DNA of 64,000 bases from Stigmatella erecta. Lineage in GTDB: Bacteria > Myxococcota > Myxococcia > Myxococcales > Myxococcaceae. The translations under genes were made by a program, and so were the position numbers. Numbering within the stretch: position 1 is the first letter of the stretch; each line of letters starts with the position of its first letter. This document shows, piece after piece, positions 7,507 through 46,386 of the stretch. A model generated the notes under the pieces. The model made no database searches. It was not told where the DNA came from and saw only the letters and a program-made list of their open reading frames with translations. The stretch is taken from assembly GCF_900111745.1 (NCBI RefSeq), contig NZ_FOIJ01000026.1, positions 1 through 64,000 of the forward strand, given 5' to 3'.

Positions 7507-9312
7507 ATGATCAGGAAAGTACTCATTGCGTTTGTAACGATTTCGTCGATCTCCGCGGCTCAGGCACAAGCGACGCAGGATGATCCTGGCGCTGATCTGA
7601 TCGTCGTCAACGCAAAGATCTTCACTGGCAACCGTGCGCAGCCCGAAGCTTCGGGCTTGGCCGTCAAGAAGGGCCGCATCTATTCCGTCGGCTCTGATGC
7701 GGAAATTCTCAGCCTGAAAAACTCCAAGACCCAGATCATTGACGCGCACAACCGTCGGATCATCCCCGGCATCGTCGATGCACATACGCACGTCCTCAAC
7801 GACCTGGCGTATAACTACAATGTGCGATGGGATGGCGTGCCGACGCTTCGTCGTGCGTTGACCATGCTGAGCGAACAGGCCGCACGCACTCCGGAAGGGC
7901 AATGGGTCAAAGTGATCGGAGGCTGGTCCCCCTTTCAATTCAAGGAGAACCGCTTTCCCACGCTGGATGAACTGCGCAAGGCGGTGCCCAACCGCCCCAT
8001 GATCGTGCAATATGCCTATAACCGTGCCTTCTTGAACAAGCGGGCGATGGAGGCACTCGGCGTAGGCACCGATCGGTTCCCGAAGTTGCCGGACATCGAA
8101 ATCGAGAAGGACGGCCGCGGCAACCCCACTGGTGTGGTCCACGGCTACACCTGGTTGTTTCTCGCCCTCGAAACCATGGTGCCACAGCCCACGTTCGACG
8201 AACAAGTGAGTTCGATGATCTATAGTGTTCACGGCCTGAACCGGTTCGGCGTGACCTCAATCATCGATAATGGCGGCAGGTGGCCATACCCCGAGGCCCA
8301 GGCGAGGGTAGACGTGCTTGCACGAGACAACCGCCTCAACGTGCGCATGCCCTTCGTGGATTTGCAGCTCGGCAACGGCGGGCCCGTCAACATGGTGGAT
8401 CTGGAAGTCGAGGCGATCACGAAAAAAGCGCCGATAAGCCCAGGACAAAACCTGCACCCCGCCTTGCCGCATGGCCATGAATATCGAGGCGCCGGGGAGG
8501 TTTTGTCCGGAGAAGTGCACGATCATGAAAACTTCGATCGTCCGGCGGTGATCATCGATCCCGAAAAGATGCGGCGCTTCGTCGAGCAGGATGTGATGAA
8601 GCTGGTCCAGCGACGCATCCCGTTCCGCATGCACATCAGCTATAACGAGAACATCTCCCCATTTCTCGACGCCCTGGAGAAGATGAGCGAGAGCATCCCG
8701 CTAGATGGCCTGCGATGGAGCTTGGAACACGCTGAAACGATCAGTCCGGAGAATATCGATCGAGTGAAAAAGCTGGGCGGCGGCATCGCTCTGGACGCTA
8801 AAATGGCGTTGCACGGCGATGCTTTCATCAAGACGTATAGTCGCGAAAAGGCTTTGGAGACACCGCGCCTGCGCACACTCGTGGATAGCGGTATTCCTTT
8901 GGCCATGACCACGGACGCATTCCGGGCAGCCACGTTTAACCCATGGGTCGGCATAAGCTGGATGGTTTCCGGCAAGTCTGTGTCCGGAACCGAGGTTCTC
9001 GCCAAGGACAACCGTCTTTCGCGCACCGAGGCGCTTCAATTGTTCACCAGAGGGGGGGCATGGTTCATGAATGCAGATTCCGAAATCGGCGCAATCGCCC
9101 CCGGAAACCTAGCGGACCTTGCTGTGCTCGACAGGGACTATTTCGACGTACCTGAGGATCAGATCAAGTCCGTAACCTCCGTTCTGACCATCATGAACGG
9201 TAAGGTAGTGTTCGGTGCGCAGGACTATCGCGCTCTGTCGCCTCAACTGCCTGCGATCCTTCCGGCTTGGTCGCCCGTTAAATTCTTTGGCAGCTATTTC
9301 GGAGAAAAGTGA
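7507..9312 (+). CDS. Secreted YtcJ-type amidohydrolase
   Basis: 601 residues from ATG 7507, preceded by GGGAGAG; the frame extends upstream but the signal peptide (MIRKVLIAFVTISSISAAQA) fixes this start. The mature protein opens with ADLIVVNAKIFTGN and has the metal motif IVDAHTHVLND, a later His in SLEHAET, and a catalytic-type Asp in AMTTDAFRA, ending with the small beta domain GNLADLAVLDRDYFDV. This is the Amidohydro_3 fold: a metal-dependent hydrolase acting on amide or related bonds, substrate unknown. The base composition is visibly lower in GC than its neighbours, and IS remnants lie on both sides, suggesting acquisition. Confidence 0.85.
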   Translation: MIRKVLIAFVTISSISAAQAQATQDDPGADLIVVNAKIFTGNRAQPEASGLAVKKGRIYSVGSDAEILSLKNSKTQIIDAHNRRIIPGIVDAHTHVLNDLAYNYNVRWDGVPTLRRALTMLSEQAARTPEGQWVKVIGGWSPFQFKENRFPTLDELRKAVPNRPMIVQYAYNRAFLNKRAMEALGVGTDRFPKLPDIEIEKDGRGNPTGVVHGYTWLFLALETMVPQPTFDEQVSSMIYSVHGLNRFGVTSIIDNGGRWPYPEAQARVDVLARDNRLNVRMPFVDLQLGNGGPVNMVDLEVEAITKKAPISPGQNLHPALPHGHEYRGAGEVLSGEVHDHENFDRPAVIIDPEKMRRFVEQDVMKLVQRRIPFRMHISYNENISPFLDALEKMSESIPLDGLRWSLEHAETISPENIDRVKKLGGGIALDAKMALHGDAFIKTYSREKALETPRLRTLVDSGIPLAMTTDAFRAATFNPWVGISWMVSGKSVSGTEVLAKDNRLSRTEALQLFTRGGAWFMNADSEIGAIAPGNLADLAVLDRDYFDVPEDQIKSVTSVLTIMNGKVVFGAQDYRALSPQLPAILPAWSPVKFFGSYFGEK

Positions 9313-9368
9313 AACCGGCACGCCAGGGGCGCCGATGCATGATTTGCTCGGCGCTCCTCGTGCGACGG

Positions 9369-9869
9369 TCATTTGCCTGCGTTGTCCCCGCTGGTCGCGT
9401 CTTCGCCAGCAGGCGGGTTTTCGGAAGCATTCAATGGCCGCAGTTGCGCGCCTGGAGCAAAGACGCCGTGGAAGAACCTCGTGAGGTTTGCCCAAGGCGG
9501 AGGTACCAGGGACGCTACACGCCGTAACAGTTCCAGCCCGGTGAAGAGCAGGTGCGCGGTGCCATCCGGCAGCGGGCGCTTCATGCGATAGGCGATGCGG
9601 CCATCCTCCATTCGCGCCAGGCGCTCCAGCGCCAGCGCGCCACGCGCCCCATAGCGGCACAGCCGCTCCAGCCCCTGCCTGTCGTTGGCGTGCGTATTGG
9701 CATGAAGGGAGAAGCCTTCCAGCAAGGCGCACCGGGGCTGCTTTCGGGGAGGGGGCCGGACGTCTACCTCCAGCCAGCGAAGCCGTTGCTGCAGGGAGTG
9801 CGCCGGGTACGCCTGCAGCGCATCCTCGGGTCCTTGCGCGGGCAATGGGTACCCACAAAGTTTCGCCAT
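9369..9869 (-). pseudogene. IS91-family transposase, internal fragment
   Basis: About 166 open codons on the minus strand. The central part has strong resemblance to IS91-like transposases: [60 protein letters not shown] and [16 protein letters not shown]. The N-terminal zinc-binding region and catalytic tyrosines are missing and the C-terminus stops soon after the GAQLRPLN block, so this is an inactive piece. It corresponds to the region just before the C-terminal piece found at 2.48-2.87 kb. Confidence 0.75.
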
Positions 9870-37118: not shown

Positions 37119-37191
37119 GGGGAGCTCACGCCCACCGTCTGGAACCCGGGCGCAGGGCGGCTCCCGCGAAGGGGCACGTGGAGAGGGCACC

Positions 37192-40100
37192 ATGGATCCG
37201 CACAGAGAACGAATCGAGCCACGGCCTGAAGCCCGGCCGCTGGAATTCGATGAGCTGACAGAGGAACAGCGTGAGGCGGGCAAGAAGGCGTCCAGCCTGC
37301 TCCGCGGCATGGCCCACGAGCCTTGGAACCACCGGAGCTCTTCCAGGTCTCAGACCCACTCCTATCTCCCCAGCCTCGACGACAACCGTCACAACCGTGT
37401 GGTCCTGCTGGATGGAGCCCGTGGCTCTGGGAAGTCCGCGCTCCTCCTCTCCCTGCTGAACGTCTACATCAAAGCGCTGACCGAACAGCGTGTTCCCCAG
37501 CCCTTCGAAGCGTGGATCGGTCCCTCCGACCGGGTCGTTCCCGTCGGGCTGATCGACCTTCAGCCGCTCCCAAGCTCTACCCACCTGATCCTCCACCTCG
37601 TGGCCAGCCTGGAGCGTGTCGTCGAGGCCATGGAATCCCGCCCTGGGCAGTCCCGGTCTGGCTCCGCGGCATGGCACCCCAGCAACGAGAACGAGCTGGC
37701 CTCTCGCCGGGGCTGGCGTCACTTCGCGAGGGTTGCCGCCTCCGGGTGGGAGAGCAACCTTCCAGCGCGCCAGGGAGCTCTGGACCCCGAAGCGTTCGCC
37801 GTGGAAGTGGAGCAAGGAGAGCTCCAGCGCTTGGATGTCATCGCGGCCTTCCGGGATTTCGTTGACGCACTCGTCGATGACTACCGGGCCTGGAACCACT
37901 GGCAGCAGGGCCCGGATCCTCTGTTCCTGCTGGCCATCGATGACGCGGACATGAATCCGAGGCTTTCACGCGAGTTGCTTCACCTCGTGCGCAAGCTCTG
38001 GCATCCGCGCCTGGCCTTTCTTCTGACGGGTGACTCGGACCTGTTCCTGGATCTGCCAGACCCTGGACCCAATCCCAGGGGGCCCGGCTTTGTCTTCGCC
38101 AGATCCATTCCCAAGCATCTGAACCTGGATCTCTACTCGAAGGTCATTCCTCAACTGCATCGGTGCCGGTTGTCAGGGTTGTCGCCGCGGCAGAGGCTCA
38201 CCGCAGGGCCCTGTCTGGAGACGTTTTTTCACCGCTGTACCGTCAATTCACGAACGCCACTTCCAGGCCGGTCCACGGGAACCCTTCTGGATTATTTCCG
38301 GAACGACCCTCAAATCTTGGAAGCGCTTCCTGGGCGGATTCGCCCTCTCTGGGAGCTCGCTGCCCTGATTCAGAGCGTGAGCGGCTCGGGAACCGCCAAA
38401 GCCGTAGAGCAAATCTGGCTAGAGTCGGTCAGGACAGCGCCCAATGACTCATCCTCCCAACGGGAACGTTTGTTTTCCATGGTCTGGGTGGATTCGAGCA
38501 CCCAAGCGCTGAAAATCGACCCGGGCTTTGCCGTCGAGTACCAGCTTGAATCCAAGGCAGAAGTGACCGTCGATCAATGGAGAACTCTCCATTTCGAACA
38601 ACCCTCCAGAGTGACCGCCTTTCTCGGCAGAAAGGATGGCGGGGGCCTCGACCACCAAGTGACCGCAGCCCTGATGGTGGCGGCCAACTATGCCGCGGAC
38701 ACCTCCGGAGCAACGACAGGCTCCCTTGGCTTCGCTATCCCCAGTGGCCTGTCTGTCCCCCTCTTGGCACGCGCTTCGGTCGCGCTTCGCGGCTCCATAG
38801 GCCCCATGATCTTCCCTTGGCCTACACCCCAATGGAACTCCTTCCTGGATATCGCGCTGTTGAAAGCCGAATGGGAACGCGAGCCCAGTCTGTCGCAGCC
38901 CTCCGAATCCCATCTTGTAGAGAGCATGGCGCAGCACTTTTTGCGCACCATTCTCCGTATAGGGCTGGGACCACAAGCAGGAGCTGGTGAGGAGGAACAG
39001 CAATTGACCCCCTCCTGGGGTGTCCTTGCCTCGGAGATCGCGCGCGCGGCCAGGATGTCCAGCAGTCCCTCCTACCGCCAGAGAGCAATGGCGGAATGGG
39101 CCCGCTTCGGGGCGGGGCTGCTGGCTGCTCCAGAGTATGGCTTGCCGGCGCCTGCCGCCAACGCCTTTCTCCAGGCACTGGGAGAGGCATTTGGCGATGA
39201 ATGGGGGACGTCGAGACACGTCCTGCGTGCCAGACGCGAAGCCCAGTTCCGGGAATCCTCCAAGGACCGGTTTATCAAGTCAGGATTATCTCTCACCAAC
39301 ACCGATCCCTTTCATGACCTGGATGCAGTCTTTCCGGAGCATCGCTTCAAGACCAGGACCCAGCTTACCGATCGCAAACAGCAGAAGAACAAGCATGATT
39401 TGCTCAAGCAATTGCGCCACAAGCTTGAGAACACACGCCTCCCCCTGCTGCAGCACACCATCGGAAAGGAAAGCAACAAAGACCCATCCCTGATGAGCTA
39501 CCTCTCTCCCTTGCGCTGGAAGTGGCTAGAGCAAGCCTCCGCGTCCTTCTTGGCGGACACAACTCAAGAACTCAGCCACTTCACGAGTGTCCGTGATGCA
39601 GGGGCCGCGGCACTCGAAAGCATCTGGAAGGCGGGATGCACGGCAGCCAATGCGCCTGAGTTCGAGAAAGACGTACAACTTATCCAGGGGAGCCTGCGCA
39701 TTGCAGCTGAGCTCCGCCGTCAACTCGATGCGCACAGGGACGCTGTCAGCATTCCCAGCGAAGGCTCGCCGTTTGGCACACAGACCGGCCTCTCCGCTCA
39801 GATTTGTCCTTTGTCAGGCGCCCAGAGCCCCATTCTGCCCCTCGGCTCCAAACCACGGTCCCGGCGAGCCCTGGAGGCTGTGCTGAGGATGGCTTACGAC
39901 CATGAGATGGACCAGTCGAAAGACGGCCACACCACACCTCCGCCGTGGTGGAAGGGCATCCAGCTCCGGTTCCAGGGAGGGCCTGCGTTCTTTCCCTGGC
40001 CCGTTCCAGCATGGCCCACCTTGTTTGAATGGGAGGTTTTGCAGAAGAATTGGAACCAGCAGTTGCACCTCGTGCGCAAGATCGGTGGAGAGGAAAGCAC

Positions 40101-40656
40101 TCAGCCCGACTCGCGAATCATGGATGCCCTCGCCTACTGGCTGGTCTCTCTTTGCTATTCACTCGAGACTCGCAATGTCGAGGATCCGGACCTGCGTCTC
40201 TCGCCATCCCTGGCGGACTGGAAAGAGCTCACGTGGAGACGCCGGCAACAACTGCTGCACGGTAATCCCCAAAGAGCGGCAGCCTATCGGAAGTGGAGAA
40301 TACAGACTGCTCTCTTCGCGACCCCCGAGGCAGGTCTCTCCCCCTTGGCAGCATCGGGGATCCTCGCGGCGCTGCCAAAACCCTCGAAGGAAGCGCTGGA
40401 GAAAATCCAGGGCCTCACGTTCTTTCTCGCCCGCCTGGCCAATCCTGATCAGGAGCTCCGAATCGTCGTGGCGGAGGACAACGTGCAGGAGATCCGCGAG
40501 GAGCTGATGCCCCTTCGCAAAGAACGCTTGCTTGCCGCGGGCATTCCGGACGCGCAGGCCGATCAGATTCTCACTCAGATCGACCAGCAGTTCGCCACGC
40601 ATCCCTGGATCCAGACCTTCGGTCCCTGGGAAGCCCCCGGCAAGTCCCCCGCCTGA
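37192..40656 (+). CDS. rdrA: RADAR-type ATPase (RdrA-like)
   Basis: 1154 residues from ATG 37192. A P-loop NTPase domain occupies about residues 65-300: Walker A GARGSGKSALLLSLL (Lys81), Walker B FLLAIDDADMNP (Asp250-Asp251), and a sensor-like strand LAFLLTGDSDLFLDLPDPG. The remaining ~850 residues are helical with no known enzyme motif. No signal peptide or membrane span. The gene sits 20 bases ahead of an adenosine-deaminase gene with a long extra N-terminal region, the arrangement of RADAR, where RdrA is the ATPase subunit and RdrB the deaminase that converts adenosine or ATP after phage infection. It is larger than the ~900 residues usual for RdrA. Assignment comes from pairing and architecture, not a direct match. 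Codon usage is less GC-biased than its neighbours, consistent with transfer. Confidence 0.8.
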   Translation: MDPHRERIEPRPEARPLEFDELTEEQREAGKKASSLLRGMAHEPWNHRSSSRSQTHSYLPSLDDNRHNRVVLLDGARGSGKSALLLSLLNVYIKALTEQRVPQPFEAWIGPSDRVVPVGLIDLQPLPSSTHLILHLVASLERVVEAMESRPGQSRSGSAAWHPSNENELASRRGWRHFARVAASGWESNLPARQGALDPEAFAVEVEQGELQRLDVIAAFRDFVDALVDDYRAWNHWQQGPDPLFLLAIDDADMNPRLSRELLHLVRKLWHPRLAFLLTGDSDLFLDLPDPGPNPRGPGFVFARSIPKHLNLDLYSKVIPQLHRCRLSGLSPRQRLTAGPCLETFFHRCTVNSRTPLPGRSTGTLLDYFRNDPQILEALPGRIRPLWELAALIQSVSGSGTAKAVEQIWLESVRTAPNDSSSQRERLFSMVWVDSSTQALKIDPGFAVEYQLESKAEVTVDQWRTLHFEQPSRVTAFLGRKDGGGLDHQVTAALMVAANYAADTSGATTGSLGFAIPSGLSVPLLARASVALRGSIGPMIFPWPTPQWNSFLDIALLKAEWEREPSLSQPSESHLVESMAQHFLRTILRIGLGPQAGAGEEEQQLTPSWGVLASEIARAARMSSSPSYRQRAMAEWARFGAGLLAAPEYGLPAPAANAFLQALGEAFGDEWGTSRHVLRARREAQFRESSKDRFIKSGLSLTNTDPFHDLDAVFPEHRFKTRTQLTDRKQQKNKHDLLKQLRHKLENTRLPLLQHTIGKESNKDPSLMSYLSPLRWKWLEQASASFLADTTQELSHFTSVRDAGAAALESIWKAGCTAANAPEFEKDVQLIQGSLRIAAELRRQLDAHRDAVSIPSEGSPFGTQTGLSAQICPLSGAQSPILPLGSKPRSRRALEAVLRMAYDHEMDQSKDGHTTPPPWWKGIQLRFQGGPAFFPWPVPAWPTLFEWEVLQKNWNQQLHLVRKIGGEESTQPDSRIMDALAYWLVSLCYSLETRNVEDPDLRLSPSLADWKELTWRRRQQLLHGNPQRAAAYRKWRIQTALFATPEAGLSPLAASGILAALPKPSKEALEKIQGLTFFLARLANPDQELRIVVAEDNVQEIREELMPLRKERLLAAGIPDAQADQILTQIDQQFATHPWIQTFGPWEAPGKSPA

Positions 40657-40676
40657 CGCCATCCCAGGAGCCCTCC

Positions 40677-43361
40677 TTGCCCCGGGAAGCTGCCCATCCG
40701 AGACTTCTCGCAGAGGCTGAGGCGTGGCCGCTGTGTTCCGCCGCCGCGTTGGCCCTGCGCACCACGCACCTGGCCTGTAGCGCCGCTGGCATTCCGGATC
40801 CTCCGACCGCTCAGCTCGCGGCAGCGCTCGAGACCCACCTCCGGCTCCGCTCAGGAGGCCTCTCGCTGGCGAGCCTCTCGGCGTTGCGTGACCGGTCCTG
40901 GTTTGGTCTCCAACGCCAGGGGCCCATCCGTGTCCCGCTGGCCCACTACGCCGTCCGGCTCGCGGAGACCTACCTCGCGCGAGGAGGGGCACGCATCCTG
41001 CTGCGAACCGAGGGCCCTGAGCCTGGAATCGACGCCGCGGACCGCGCCGCGCACTGGCGATGGTTGTCTCTGCGCCTCCCCGCTGACCTCCTCGTCGCGG
41101 CCTTGTATGCACCGGACGGCTCACGCCCCTTCTCGGACCGCGTGAGCCTCGCCACCGCGCACCTGGAGCGGCTGCTTCAGCAGCCCGTCGCGGAGACGCA
41201 CCTGCACGTGGGAGCGGCCTTTGGCTTCCCGCTCATGTGGACGGCTTGGATGGGCTGGCTGAGCCGGGAGGGACCCGGCCTGGAGAAGCTCCGCGTGGAC
41301 GCGGAGAGCCCCTTCGGAGACGCCGCTGGGCTCCGGGGAAGGCTCCTGTCCGCCGCGATCGCGCGTGTCCTGTTCGCGGCCTTCCTCTGGAAACGGGAGC
41401 GCAGGGCCTTCCATGAGGGCTTCGCTCTCTTTGAAGCACGGGAGCTGATGCCGCTCTGTGAGCGGCTGCGCTGGCACTCTGGAGCTGTCGAGTGCAGGAG
41501 GCTCTGCTCCCAGGCGCTCTCGGGACTGTCCCACCCAGGGGACGCGGGCCAGTTTGCGCGGCTCCAGCGGCTGTACGCCCGCCTCACCGAGGACATCCGG
41601 CTCGCTCCGGCCAAGGCGCTTGACGCCCTCCACACGGCGGACCCCCTCGCAGCCTGGCTCCAACCATCTCCAGGTGAAACCTGTGCCGAGACGCTGCTCT
41701 CCACACGCGCGCTTCACTACCTCTTGCACGAGGGCCACGCGGACGAACGCTTCGCCGAGCTCTTCTGGCAGTACCAACGGATCCGGTGCCTGGCACATGC
41801 CCACCTCGTCCAAGAGCCAGGCACCTCGGGCTTGGATTGGTTCAGCCGGCATTACCGGCGACTGTCCCCGCTTCGTGGCCCCTTGGAGGACCTCCGCTTC
41901 GAGGCAGCCTTGCAGCACCAATCCGCGGGAGTCCGGCTCGGTGCGCTCGAAGCACGGACCGCCCCCATGCCAACATGGACGGAGGTCCGCGATGAGACAC
42001 GCCGGCTCGCCCGCGCCGGTGTCCACCTTCCTCCTCCCTTGCCCGGTGTCCAGGCGCCAGAGTTGGGCCTCATCTTCCACTTCATCAAGGAGCGTGAGCA
42101 CACACTCGGCGGGCTCCGGAGCCTCCACGCGGATCCAGGAGGTGACCCCGCCGGGTTCCGGTTCGGGGTGTGGTACCGGGCTCGCCGCAGGGAGGCCCTG
42201 GCACTGGAGACGGCCCTGCGCCACCACCCGGAGCTGCTCCTGCTCGTGCGTGGACTGGACGTCGCGAGCACCGAGCTCTCGGTTCCGACCTGGGCCGTCG
42301 CGCCTCTCCTGAACTCGCTCCGGGCCGCATCCATCGACGTTTCCGAAGCGCTGGTGCGGCAGCGCCCGGCCTGGCGTGTCCCACCGCTTCAGGTGACATG
42401 CCACGCGGGTGAAGACTTCACACGCCTGGTGGAAGGGCTGCGCCGCATCCACGAACTGTACACAGCGGGGGTCCTCCGCCTTGGAGACCGGATTGGCCAT
42501 GGACTGGCGCTGGGAACCGCCCCACGCCTCTGGGCAGCATCCGCCCCCACGGTGATTCAGGCCGCGGAGGAGCGGCTGGAGGATCTCCTTTGGGAGCTGG
42601 AGCGCTACGGCCACGGCGACGTGGGGGTTCCCGCGCAGCGCCTCGAACGCGTCAGGACCGAAGCACTCCGGACCGCCCGCCACATCTATGGCCCGGAACT
42701 CCAAGAGCTGGATGTCCTCATTGCCGCCAGGCGGCTGCGCGCTCAGGCCTCCACGCTGAGGAGACTTGGGTTTCCCGATCGCCTACAACCTTCGCCTCCG
42801 GCGGGAAGTCCCGAGAGCATCGTCTGGCGCCAGCTCACGGACGTGGGCGTCTTTCATCGTGGCCAGATGTTGCTCGACGTCCAGGTGGACGAAGGAGAGA
42901 TTCAATTCCTAACGGAGGCCCAGCAATGGCTGGTTTCGGTTCTTGCCCGGCTTGAGATCACCGTGGAGGCAAACCCCTCCAGCAACCTCTTGATCGCGGA
43001 TCTCCTCGGCATCGAGGAGCACCCTGTCCTCCGCATGATGGACCCTGCATTGCCCCTGACCGAGGGTTCCTGGAGCGAGCCTCAGGTCCCCCGGGAGGCG
43101 GCTTCACGGTTGATGGTGTCGATCAACTCAGATGACCCCATGACCTTCGCCACATGTCTCGCGGATGAATACGCCTACCTTTACTTCGCGCTTCTCCGGC
43201 GGAACATTCCCTCGGCGACAGCCCTTTCCTGGATCGACTCGGTTCGAGCGCATGGCATGCGCTCACGCTTCACACAGCTGGCGAGCGCGGACCCTCGAGC
43301 GCTGGCGTACATCCTCTCTCCAAACGCACCGGCCCGGCGCGTTCCGCAGGGTGGCCGGTAG
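40677..43361 (+). CDS. rdrB: RADAR-type adenosine deaminase (RdrB-like)
   Basis: 894 residues from TTG 40677, with AGGAG six bases upstream and 20 bases after the ATPase stop. All deaminase active-site elements are present: the HxH zinc pair in AETHLHVGAAF (His175, His177), the third zinc His and catalytic Glu in TCHAGEDFTRLVEGL (His576, Glu579), a catalytic His in DRIGHGLALG (His608), and the Asp pair in SINSDDPMTFATCL (Asp819-Asp820). ANPSSNLLIADLLG matches another ADA-family block. The spacing between HxH and HAGE is about 400 residues, much longer than in ordinary adenosine deaminases (~200), as in RdrB, which has a large inserted domain. It should deaminate adenosine in RNA or nucleotides to inosine when activated with its ATPase partner. 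Confidence 0.85.
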   Translation: MPREAAHPRLLAEAEAWPLCSAAALALRTTHLACSAAGIPDPPTAQLAAALETHLRLRSGGLSLASLSALRDRSWFGLQRQGPIRVPLAHYAVRLAETYLARGGARILLRTEGPEPGIDAADRAAHWRWLSLRLPADLLVAALYAPDGSRPFSDRVSLATAHLERLLQQPVAETHLHVGAAFGFPLMWTAWMGWLSREGPGLEKLRVDAESPFGDAAGLRGRLLSAAIARVLFAAFLWKRERRAFHEGFALFEARELMPLCERLRWHSGAVECRRLCSQALSGLSHPGDAGQFARLQRLYARLTEDIRLAPAKALDALHTADPLAAWLQPSPGETCAETLLSTRALHYLLHEGHADERFAELFWQYQRIRCLAHAHLVQEPGTSGLDWFSRHYRRLSPLRGPLEDLRFEAALQHQSAGVRLGALEARTAPMPTWTEVRDETRRLARAGVHLPPPLPGVQAPELGLIFHFIKEREHTLGGLRSLHADPGGDPAGFRFGVWYRARRREALALETALRHHPELLLLVRGLDVASTELSVPTWAVAPLLNSLRAASIDVSEALVRQRPAWRVPPLQVTCHAGEDFTRLVEGLRRIHELYTAGVLRLGDRIGHGLALGTAPRLWAASAPTVIQAAEERLEDLLWELERYGHGDVGVPAQRLERVRTEALRTARHIYGPELQELDVLIAARRLRAQASTLRRLGFPDRLQPSPPAGSPESIVWRQLTDVGVFHRGQMLLDVQVDEGEIQFLTEAQQWLVSVLARLEITVEANPSSNLLIADLLGIEEHPVLRMMDPALPLTEGSWSEPQVPREAASRLMVSINSDDPMTFATCLADEYAYLYFALLRRNIPSATALSWIDSVRAHGMRSRFTQLASADPRALAYILSPNAPARRVPQGGR

Positions 43362-43425
43362 TGGGCCAGGCCAAGACTCCATGGCCGCCGCGGCCCTGAA
43401 ATGGATGGGCCGCGGCGGCCGGGGC

Positions 43426-44631: not shown

Positions 44632-46386
44632 TCAGCCGGGCGGCATCGCGGGGAGACGCACGCGGAAGGTGGTCCCCGTCTCCTCCGTGCTCTCCACGGA
44701 GACGCTTCCCCCATGCGCCTCGGCAACGCCCCTCACGAGCGTCAGCCCGATGCCCCAGCCCTTCTTGCCACTGGCCTCCGCGCTCTTCGTGCGGCGGAAG
44801 GATTGGAAGAGGAGCGCCTGCTCCTCGGGGGAGATGGGGTTGCCCCAGTTGTGGACGGCCAGCTCCGCCATGCCCCCCTCCTGTTTCAGGCTCACGGTCA
44901 CCTGCTGCGCCGGGTCTCCGGACTTGATGGCATTGCCGCAGAGGTTCTCGACGGCCCGGCGCAGGGCCCGCGCATCCCAGCAGCCCTGGACCCGCTCTTC
45001 TCCCTGGAGGAGGAACCGCTCCCCGTGAAGGGTCGAGAGTTCCTCCAGCGTGCCGGCCACCACCTGCCGGAGCTCCACGGGGGTCCGCTCGATGGGCAGT
45101 CCCTGGCCGGCGCGGATGCGGTTCACATCCAGCAGGTCGGTGATCATCTGGTCCGCCCGGTCGATGTTGTGCCTCACCCGGGCGGCCAGGGAGTAGATCT
45201 TGCCGGGCAGGTCCGGCTGGCGGGGAATGAGCTGGGCGCTCATCTTCGCAGCGGTCAGGGGCGTGCGGAGATCATGGCTGAGGGCCAGCACGAACTGCTC
45301 GCGCAGCGCCCGCTCGACCCGGAGCTGCGACAGGGCGGTCTCCGCCTCCTGCCGGGCCACCTGCTCGCAGGCGAGGCTCTCCTCGAGCTGCCGCTCGGCC
45401 TGTTTGCGCCCCGAGATGTCGATGAAGACACTGACGGCCTCGGAGATCCGGCCCTCCGCATCGCGGAGGGGCGCCGCCATGACGGAGAGGTAGACGAGGG
45501 TTCCGTCGCTCCTGCGCAGCACCACCTCCTCATCCTGGAGCGTCTTGCCTTCATGGAGGGCCCGGGCCAGCGGATACTCCTCGGGGCGGTAGGGGGTGAG
45601 GTCCGGATGAACGGCGGCCCACGGGGAGTATGCCTCGCTCCTGAGCAGCAGCGCCGGATGCCCCAGGAGCCGGTCCGCCTCCGCATTGAAGTAGAGGATG
45701 CGTCCCGAGGGAGCCTCCGCGAGGGTGAAGCCCGCAGGTATTTGCTGCACGATCATCTCCAGGGTCCTGCGCTCGAACTGAGCCGTCTCGGCGAGGCGCG
45801 CGTTCTCCAGGGCCACTCCGGCCAGGGCCCTCAGCGCCTTGAGGAGCTCCAGGTCCTCCTGGGTAAAGGGCTGATGGTCCTTCTTGTTGTGGAGCTCGAA
45901 GCACCCCAGCAGTTCCCCGGAGCGGGCAAAGAGCGGCAGGTCGATGAGGTTGTAGAACCCCCGGCTCTTCTGGAGATGCGACAGGACCTGCGCATCCCGG
46001 GCGGCATCGTTCGAGATGTAGGGCTCCCGGGTGACCATCACATGGCCGGGAACCCCTTCATTGGGCGCGAAGACGACGTGGCGCGGTTCAATGGCCTTTC
46101 CCTCGCGCCACAGGGATTCCATGATGACCATGCGCCCGTCGCTCAGCCGTCCCCAGACGCCTTCGGCCGCATCCACCAATTCCATGGCCAGCCAGACGAG
46201 CCTCCGCATGATGTCCAGGCTCTGACGGCTCGAGTTGAGGTCCCGCGCGGCGAGCGCCAACAGTTCGAATTGCCGGTTCCGGCACTCCAGCTGCGCCTGG
46301 GCCCGCTGGAGATCCGCCTCGAGGCGCGAGAGCCGGTGCTCGGGCGCCTCCTGATCTGTTCCTGAGGGTGTCTCCTGGGAGGCCAT
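44632..46386 (-). CDS. Cytoplasmic GAF-PAS sensor histidine kinase
   Basis: 584 residues. There is no membrane segment. A coiled-coil lead (SRLEADLQRAQAQLECRNRQ) is followed by a GAF domain (residues ~40-200, ending LKALRALAGVALENARLAET), a PAS domain (MIVQQIPAGFTLAEAPSG to VSVFIDISGRKQAERQ), the phospho-acceptor His in VLALSHDLRTPLTAAKMSAQ and the ATPase domain with ENLCGNAIKSG, AVHNWGNPIS and GWGIGLTLVRGVAEAHGG. It should autophosphorylate on a soluble or redox signal. No response regulator is adjacent; it is divergent from another kinase. Confidence 0.92.
   Translation of the reverse strand: MASQETPSGTDQEAPEHRLSRLEADLQRAQAQLECRNRQFELLALAARDLNSSRQSLDIMRRLVWLAMELVDAAEGVWGRLSDGRMVIMESLWREGKAIEPRHVVFAPNEGVPGHVMVTREPYISNDAARDAQVLSHLQKSRGFYNLIDLPLFARSGELLGCFELHNKKDHQPFTQEDLELLKALRALAGVALENARLAETAQFERRTLEMIVQQIPAGFTLAEAPSGRILYFNAEADRLLGHPALLLRSEAYSPWAAVHPDLTPYRPEEYPLARALHEGKTLQDEEVVLRRSDGTLVYLSVMAAPLRDAEGRISEAVSVFIDISGRKQAERQLEESLACEQVARQEAETALSQLRVERALREQFVLALSHDLRTPLTAAKMSAQLIPRQPDLPGKIYSLAARVRHNIDRADQMITDLLDVNRIRAGQGLPIERTPVELRQVVAGTLEELSTLHGERFLLQGEERVQGCWDARALRRAVENLCGNAIKSGDPAQQVTVSLKQEGGMAELAVHNWGNPISPEEQALLFQSFRRTKSAEASGKKGWGIGLTLVRGVAEAHGGSVSVESTEETGTTFRVRLPAMPPG

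Follow-up and report, generated by a model that had tools for sequence, protein, structure and literature searches.

A divergent RADAR-type gene pair of Stigmatella erecta with a tandem duplication in the C-terminal part of its RdrA-like ATPase

Contig NZ_FOIJ01000026.1 of Stigmatella erecta carries a gene for a large ATPase followed at once by a gene for an adenosine deaminase-like protein, which raises the question of whether the two constitute a RADAR (rdrA-rdrB) antiphage system and what accounts for the unusual size of the ATPase. In the window, that is the whole stretch of 64,000 nucleotides analysed here, the rdrA-like gene starts with ATG and spans 37192..40656 of the forward strand (1154 aa), and the rdrB-like gene starts with TTG and spans 40677..43361 of the same strand (894 aa). 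The TTG codon is preceded at 6 bp by an AGGAG motif and aligns with ATG starts in several relatives. The initial annotation, made from the letters alone, had described two adjacent ORFs separated by 20 bases and had interpreted them as a minimal two-gene RADAR; both ORFs are present with these lengths and this spacing, and the order rdrA then rdrB on one strand, as in RADAR, recurs in 13 myxobacterial loci in addition to the window. The two-gene form is confirmed but is not what sets this locus apart, as standalone rdrAB is already one of the three RADAR subtypes described in the accessible text of PMC7699616 ('RADAR standalone'). The unusual point is a duplicated C-terminal unit in the ATPase, which the initial annotation missed.

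To assign the second protein, its sequence was compared with family profiles. It matched the NCBIfam RdrB profile NF041744 with 137.9 bits (E 4.5e-40), short of the 800-bit equivalog cut-off, and the PADLOC RdrB profile with 110.2 bits (E 2.4e-32). A profile built from 40 branch RdrBs retrieved RdrB from the PDB at 8.1e-61 over 515 profile positions. All the adenosine deaminase active-site elements proposed earlier are present: HLH at residues 175-177 (41199..41207, +) with the metal ligands H175 and H177, HAGE at 576-579 (42402..42413, +) with the metal ligand H576 and the catalytic E579, the third histidine motif GH at 607-608 (H608, 42498..42500, +) and the DD motif D819-D820 (43131..43136, +). 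Across 40 aligned sequences, no substitution occurs at H175, H177, H576, E579, H608 or D819, and at least 90% conserve D820. In the numbering of the accessible text of PMC9994260, the zinc-deaminase site of E. coli RdrB comprises H152, H154, H498, E501 and H530, the last three of which match H576, E579 and H608. The gap between HxH and HAGE, announced as about 400 residues, is 398 residues long (178-575), compared to 343 in E. coli RdrB (H154 to H498 in the same source).

The AlphaFold2 monomer model of this protein (pLDDT 91.8, pTM 0.93) retrieved RdrB at ranks 1 to 8 of a Foldseek search (E 7e-26 to 3e-23), ordinary deaminases appearing only from 8.4e-05. VIA-align superimposed residues 14-868 of the model on E. 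coli RdrB (8fnv_A) with a Z score of 32.9 over 696 residues and an rmsd of 3.8 Å, the identity over the structurally aligned residues being about 19%. By contrast, the other deaminases listed reached at most Z 27.3 (this best value over 306 residues) and aligned over about 280-390 residues, indicating that the resemblance to RdrB extends beyond the deaminase core. The initial annotation would have been contradicted by a second protein unlike RdrB in the inserted region; the alignment runs across the RdrB-type insertions around the core, and an ordinary adenosine deaminase can be ruled out, the best Foldseek and VIA-align matches being RdrB.

Assignment of the ATPase was less direct. Its scores against the NCBIfam RdrA profile NF041743 (11.8 bits, E 0.06, for an equivalog cut-off of 600 bits) and the PADLOC RdrA profile (E 0.035) are so weak that the protein by itself would not receive the name RdrA, and its match to Pfam AAA_16 (6e-05) lies under the family cut-off. 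It should be noted that of seven RdrAs from plasmid records only two pass the NCBIfam cut-off, four scoring 105-128 bits and one giving no match. When profiles were compared with hhalign, residues 26-331 of the ATPase profile aligned with six plasmid RdrAs at 98.7% probability (E 3.3e-16), and a profile of 35 branch RdrAs placed RdrA first in the PDB at 4.3e-11, the next molecule following at 0.0026. This part has the features of the RdrA-type AAA+ domain, with a Walker A motif GARGSGKS at residues 75-82 (37414..37437, +), a Walker B motif LFLLAIDD at 244-251 (37921..37944, +) and between them, in the AlphaFold2 model, a helical insertion with helices within residues 132-234 (37585..37893, +). 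G78, G80, K81 and D250 are invariant in the alignment of 35 RdrAs. From the description in the part of PMC9994260 that was available, the insertion may correspond to the crown through which E. coli RdrA docks on RdrB.

The structural comparison agrees with this assignment. The monomer model of the ATPase (pLDDT 82.5, pTM 0.65) retrieved RdrA chains at all of ranks 1 to 15 in Foldseek (3.9e-07 to 9.3e-05), followed by BrxC at 3.8e-04. In VIA-align it matched RdrA with Z 21.7 over 519 residues at about 13% identity, compared to Z 12.8 for BrxC, the best molecule other than RdrA. The alignment pairs residues 9-722 of the model with residues 20-896 of the RdrA chain, but with an rmsd of 10.0 Å. 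A partner ATPase of another known family would have spoken against RADAR; the best structural matches of this one are RdrA. Taken together, the comparisons support RADAR for both members of the pair, RdrB through profile search and predicted structure and RdrA through profile-profile comparison and predicted structure.

The initial annotation had also remarked that the ATPase is about 250 residues longer than usual. It exceeds the E. coli RdrA chain (947 aa) by 207 residues, that of Streptococcus suis (907 aa) by 247 and the seven plasmid RdrAs (836-1027 aa) by 127-318. This extra length arises because the C-terminal part consists of a unit of about 370-390 residues that is tandemly duplicated: copy 1 occupies residues 361-729 (38272..39378, +) and copy 2 residues 763-1149 (39478..40638, +). 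Profiles of the two copies over eight long RdrAs aligned in hhalign at 99.7% (E 4.2e-27, 337 columns), and a narrower cut of the copies gave 99.7% and E 1.3e-25, whereas the control comparison of the AAA+ part with copy 2 gave 0.5%. Its sequence signature combines WPxPxW, a distal W and APExGLP, with HPW at the end. An HMM built for it, enriched with matches from the same set ahead of the final count, was run on the 53 branch RdrAs and detected two copies in 12, one in 40 (three of which, L063, L065 and L075, are cut or short ORFs) and none in one (L085). The same HMM found the unit in none of the seven plasmid RdrAs, and hhalign of the unit against their C-terminal parts gave a probability of at most 0.2%, that is, no detectable sequence relation, in line with the lack of conservation of the RdrA C-terminal part reported in the available text of PMC9994260.

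All 12 two-copy RdrAs fall in one clade of 18 on the RdrB tree (support 99). The remaining six members are five single-copy proteins and L047, which was labelled two-unit by judgement (1074 aa, with a match only at its C-terminal end) while the unit HMM found one. With L065, L075, L076 and L085 uncounted, the number of units requires three changes on this tree, for which one gain and two losses of the second copy would be a parsimonious, though not proven, reading. When 35 units are placed in a tree, a branch supported at 25/78 keeps the second copies to one side, and this support rises to 56/79 for 29 units when the long-branched L036, L045, L082 and L083 are dropped; these values neither show nor reject a single origin of the second copy. 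Among the drawn, supported branches, the two copies of one protein were never each other's nearest kin in any two-unit protein. Both copies change faster than the AAA+ domain or RdrB, the mean identity among seven close two-copy members being 28.8% for copy 1 and 27.2% for copy 2, compared to 45.8% for the AAA+ domain and 50.4% for RdrB. Such a rate would fit phage-driven pressure on this part of the protein, without proving it.

To determine how widely the pair occurs, 195 Myxococcota genomes were searched. The ATPase gave matches in 13 of them, and all 13 complete loci taken from these genomes have the deaminase gene next to it. Apart from these, one site (L037, genome G087 C1, about 635672-635776) holds a 34-residue relic of an rdrA N-terminus, 65% identical, that has no adjoining deaminase. 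The deaminase profile gave strong matches (at least 600 bits) at 37 places in 30 genomes and weak matches only in eight further genomes, which are probably other deaminases. A scan of genome contigs yielded 51 loci from Myxococcota, Planctomycetota, Pseudomonadota, Acidobacteriota, Thermodesulfobacteriota and others, 47 of which have an ORF of at least 150 aa ending within 400 bp upstream of rdrB, the other four being at contig ends or cut. The distances between AAA+ parts and those between RdrBs are correlated over 48 loci (r 0.954), a value reached in none of 999 permutations. In a tree of 61 RdrBs, from which the fragments L084, L086 and L087 were excluded and in which L085 and some plasmid rows are long-branched, 54 branch members split with SH-aLRT 99 from the RdrBs of seven plasmid RADAR-like pairs, a set that includes E. 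coli-like families and lacks the three laboratory-tested RADARs. Judged by these sequence comparisons, the window pair belongs to a deep, poorly annotated branch of RADAR, and the earlier suggestion of a divergent branch is borne out by the low NCBIfam scores and this separate position. With this branch lying below the family cut-offs, database counts of RADAR are probably too low, strong matches being present in 30 of the 195 Myxococcota genomes.

Within the window's own genus the pair was found in two of seven genomes. Other types are distributed differently. A single-unit RADAR-like pair is nearly fixed in one genus (g6, inferred to be Corallococcus), being present in 14 of its 16 genomes, while a further one, G086, has another type; published RADAR has been reported in less than 1% of genomes (PMC9994260). 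This Corallococcus-type group comprises L053, L062, L064, L067, L068, L069, L072, L075 and L081 together with the g6 genomes, and in nine of ten Corallococcus loci one and the same convergent gene lies downstream. Two genomes were seen to hold three RADAR-like pairs of different types each, Myxococcus sp. RHSTA-1-4 (L038, L044 and L060) and G101 (on C2, C3 and C10).

We then considered the setting of the pair in the window. The corresponding site is empty in a close relative (G096 C18), where blastn placed the flanks 141 bp apart: the alignment breaks off at 37119 and starts again at 43377, so that the cassette absent from this relative is 37120..43376, and the flanks are 84.8% (upstream) and 92.8% (downstream) identical. 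Homology is picked up again at a perfect 14-bp inverted repeat with a 10-bp loop (43383..43420), located between rdrB and a convergent GH76 gene and probably serving both genes as a shared terminator. The same comparison showed a 489-bp stretch of in-frame size (45166-45654) within a histidine kinase gene (44632-46386, -) that is missing from that gene in G096. As stated in the initial annotation, the codon usage of the pair differs from that of its neighbours, the distance to the pooled flank genes being 0.225 for the ATPase and 0.163 for the deaminase and ranging from 0.092 to 0.149 for ten flank genes. A tendency of rdrA always to be poorer than rdrB in GC at third positions was tried as a general feature and rejected, holding in only 32 of 49 branch pairs and four of seven plasmid pairs. 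The further proposal that the cassette may be mobile is half borne out, by its codon usage and by the empty site, but no integrase or transposase was seen among the ten flank proteins scanned.

The flanks of the window contain Kelch, GH76 and histidine kinase genes and are not a defence island. Pfam and PADLOC detected no Csx27-like or SLATT protein among the ten flank proteins, in agreement with the earlier remark that no accessory gene adjoins the pair, nor was any defence gene found among them, the weak PADLOC matches being confined to two histidine kinases (9e-7 and 7e-5). Apart from rdrA and rdrB, no gene recurred in at least three of 15 loci, except among the syntenic loci L032-L035 and in one cluster holding the two window histidine kinases. 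In the 51 loci the larger shared neighbour cluster is a downstream gene found mostly in Corallococcus. Defence genes do adjoin some relatives, namely BrxHI (L047), PsyrT (L066) and a type III restriction enzyme (L050), in a scan that covered 137 of 157 picked neighbour ORFs with crude ORF choices and that included no matched control set.

Compared to known systems, the pair resembles E. coli RADAR (8fnt/8fnv/8fnw, 8hr7) in gene order, in an AAA+ domain whose Walker B motif is preceded by a large helical insertion, in a zinc deaminase with RdrB-type insertions and in providing the best structural matches for both proteins; it differs in its low identity and in the length of RdrA. The NCBIfam equivalogs give a significant RdrB match, yet both window proteins fall short of their cut-offs (11.8 of 600 and 137.9 of 800 bits), so the pair is a variant of RADAR outside these equivalogs. 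Relative to RADAR standalone, the C-terminal unit shows no detectable sequence similarity to the C-terminal part of the seven plasmid RdrAs and is present twice. Single-unit members of the branch (such as Corallococcus L062 and Methylococcales L057) have the same pair, active site and C-terminal unit signature, but one unit only, and their RdrBs are about 31-33% identical to that of the window. Cad1, the CARF-fused adenosine deaminase of type III CRISPR systems, which converts ATP to ITP according to the accessible text of PMC12669630, shares the adenosine deaminase fold (Z 25.1 over 328 residues). However, Pfam detected no CARF domain in the window deaminase, the partner of the latter is an AAA+ ATPase, and it aligns better with RdrB, over more than twice the length. 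Among the matches listed in our literature search, no paper dealt with a duplicated RdrA, with this branch or with RADAR in myxobacteria.

These data make it probable that the two genes in the window encode a defence system of RADAR type from a deep branch, in one clade of which the C-terminal part of RdrA would have undergone one tandem duplication. For E. coli RADAR, the available part of PMC9994260 reports that both active sites are needed and that ITP and dITP accumulate; it states that the trigger is unknown and proposes the uncharacterised C-terminal domain of RdrA as the sensor. By analogy, the window RdrB would assemble into a shell that turns (d)ATP into (d)ITP, the RdrA subunits would form an AAA+ ring docking on RdrB through its helical crown, and the C-terminal part of RdrA would sense infection and switch the deaminase on, such that the infected cell would poison its own nucleotide pool before the phage matures. 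If the C-terminal domain is the sensor, then the sensor is doubled in this clade, each RdrA subunit having two sensor-type units. Such a role is suggested by the position of the unit and its rate of change, given that it has no detectable sequence relation to the C-terminal part of plasmid RdrAs and that the structural alignment has an rmsd of 10 Å. As a tentative extension, the unit might be a swappable trigger-sensing module in which copy 1 still serves the original trigger or the ring contacts and copy 2 recognises a second signal from the phage or adds a third layer to the funnel, RADAR specificity then evolving by duplication or replacement of the tail unit, like the LRR and TPR sensors of other immune ATPases. 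The two-copy clade, which stands beside one-copy members with the same RdrB type, offers natural material for a domain-deletion or domain-swap test of RADAR triggering.

Several points nevertheless count against the reading as a RADAR-type defence system: the 11.8-bit NCBIfam score of RdrA, the lack of a defence gene in the ten proteins scanned from the window's flanks, the near fixation of a related group in one genus, an uncommon pattern for defence systems, and a C-terminal unit found in none of the seven plasmid RdrAs and aligned to known RdrA only with an rmsd of 10 Å. The very weak family scores of the ATPase alone could even suggest an unrelated ATPase and an adenosine deaminase relative that are neighbours by chance, an idea to which we give hardly any credence: the pairing in 47 of 51 loci and the co-divergence of the two proteins refute it, and RADAR proteins are the best structural matches for both. 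A cellular role in place of defence, for instance control of nucleotide pools during myxobacterial development, starvation or predation, would be in keeping with the 14 of 16 g6 genomes that carry the single-unit pair and with the convergent gene shared by nine of ten Corallococcus loci, a core-gene-like setting. But these belong to a different group of the branch, whereas the window type has a patchy distribution (two of the seven genomes in its genus), is missing at this site in G096 and has off-pattern codon usage, and other branch members adjoin BREX, PsyrT and restriction genes. Such a role therefore appears improbable for the window pair.

A further alternative retains the RADAR architecture and phage defence but assigns the deaminase another adenine-containing target: AMP, a nucleotide used in signalling or the adenines of an RNA. 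In its favour, this branch lies far from the RdrBs of solved structure, with 19% identity over aligned residues, and, next to RdrB, AMP and adenosine deaminases (ADA, ADAL and AMP deaminases) appear in the two top structural families listed (six of 15 rows). Deaminases of this fold also differ in substrate range, Cad1 being specific for ATP and RADAR broader according to the part of PMC12669630 available. However, all zinc-deaminase residues and the RdrB-specific insertions are kept and nothing points to a specific other substrate, and we regard a change of target as unlikely, if somewhat less so than a cellular role. We therefore retain a RADAR-type defence system, acting on the nucleotide pool, as the probable function of the pair.

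Carriage of such pairs on plasmids, phages and viral contigs was also surveyed. Seven plasmid records were matched, whereas phage records gave no match and none of 15 pattern matches on viral contigs was confirmed. Two of the plasmid loci have downstream neighbours of note. On a Cetobacterium plasmid (L120), the gene immediately after a RADAR-like pair belongs to the VanZ family (7874-8305); the ATPase of this pair gave no NCBIfam match. On a Rhizobium plasmid (L125), an adenylosuccinate synthetase gene (7951-9552), which belongs to the same purine pathway, lies downstream of the pair.
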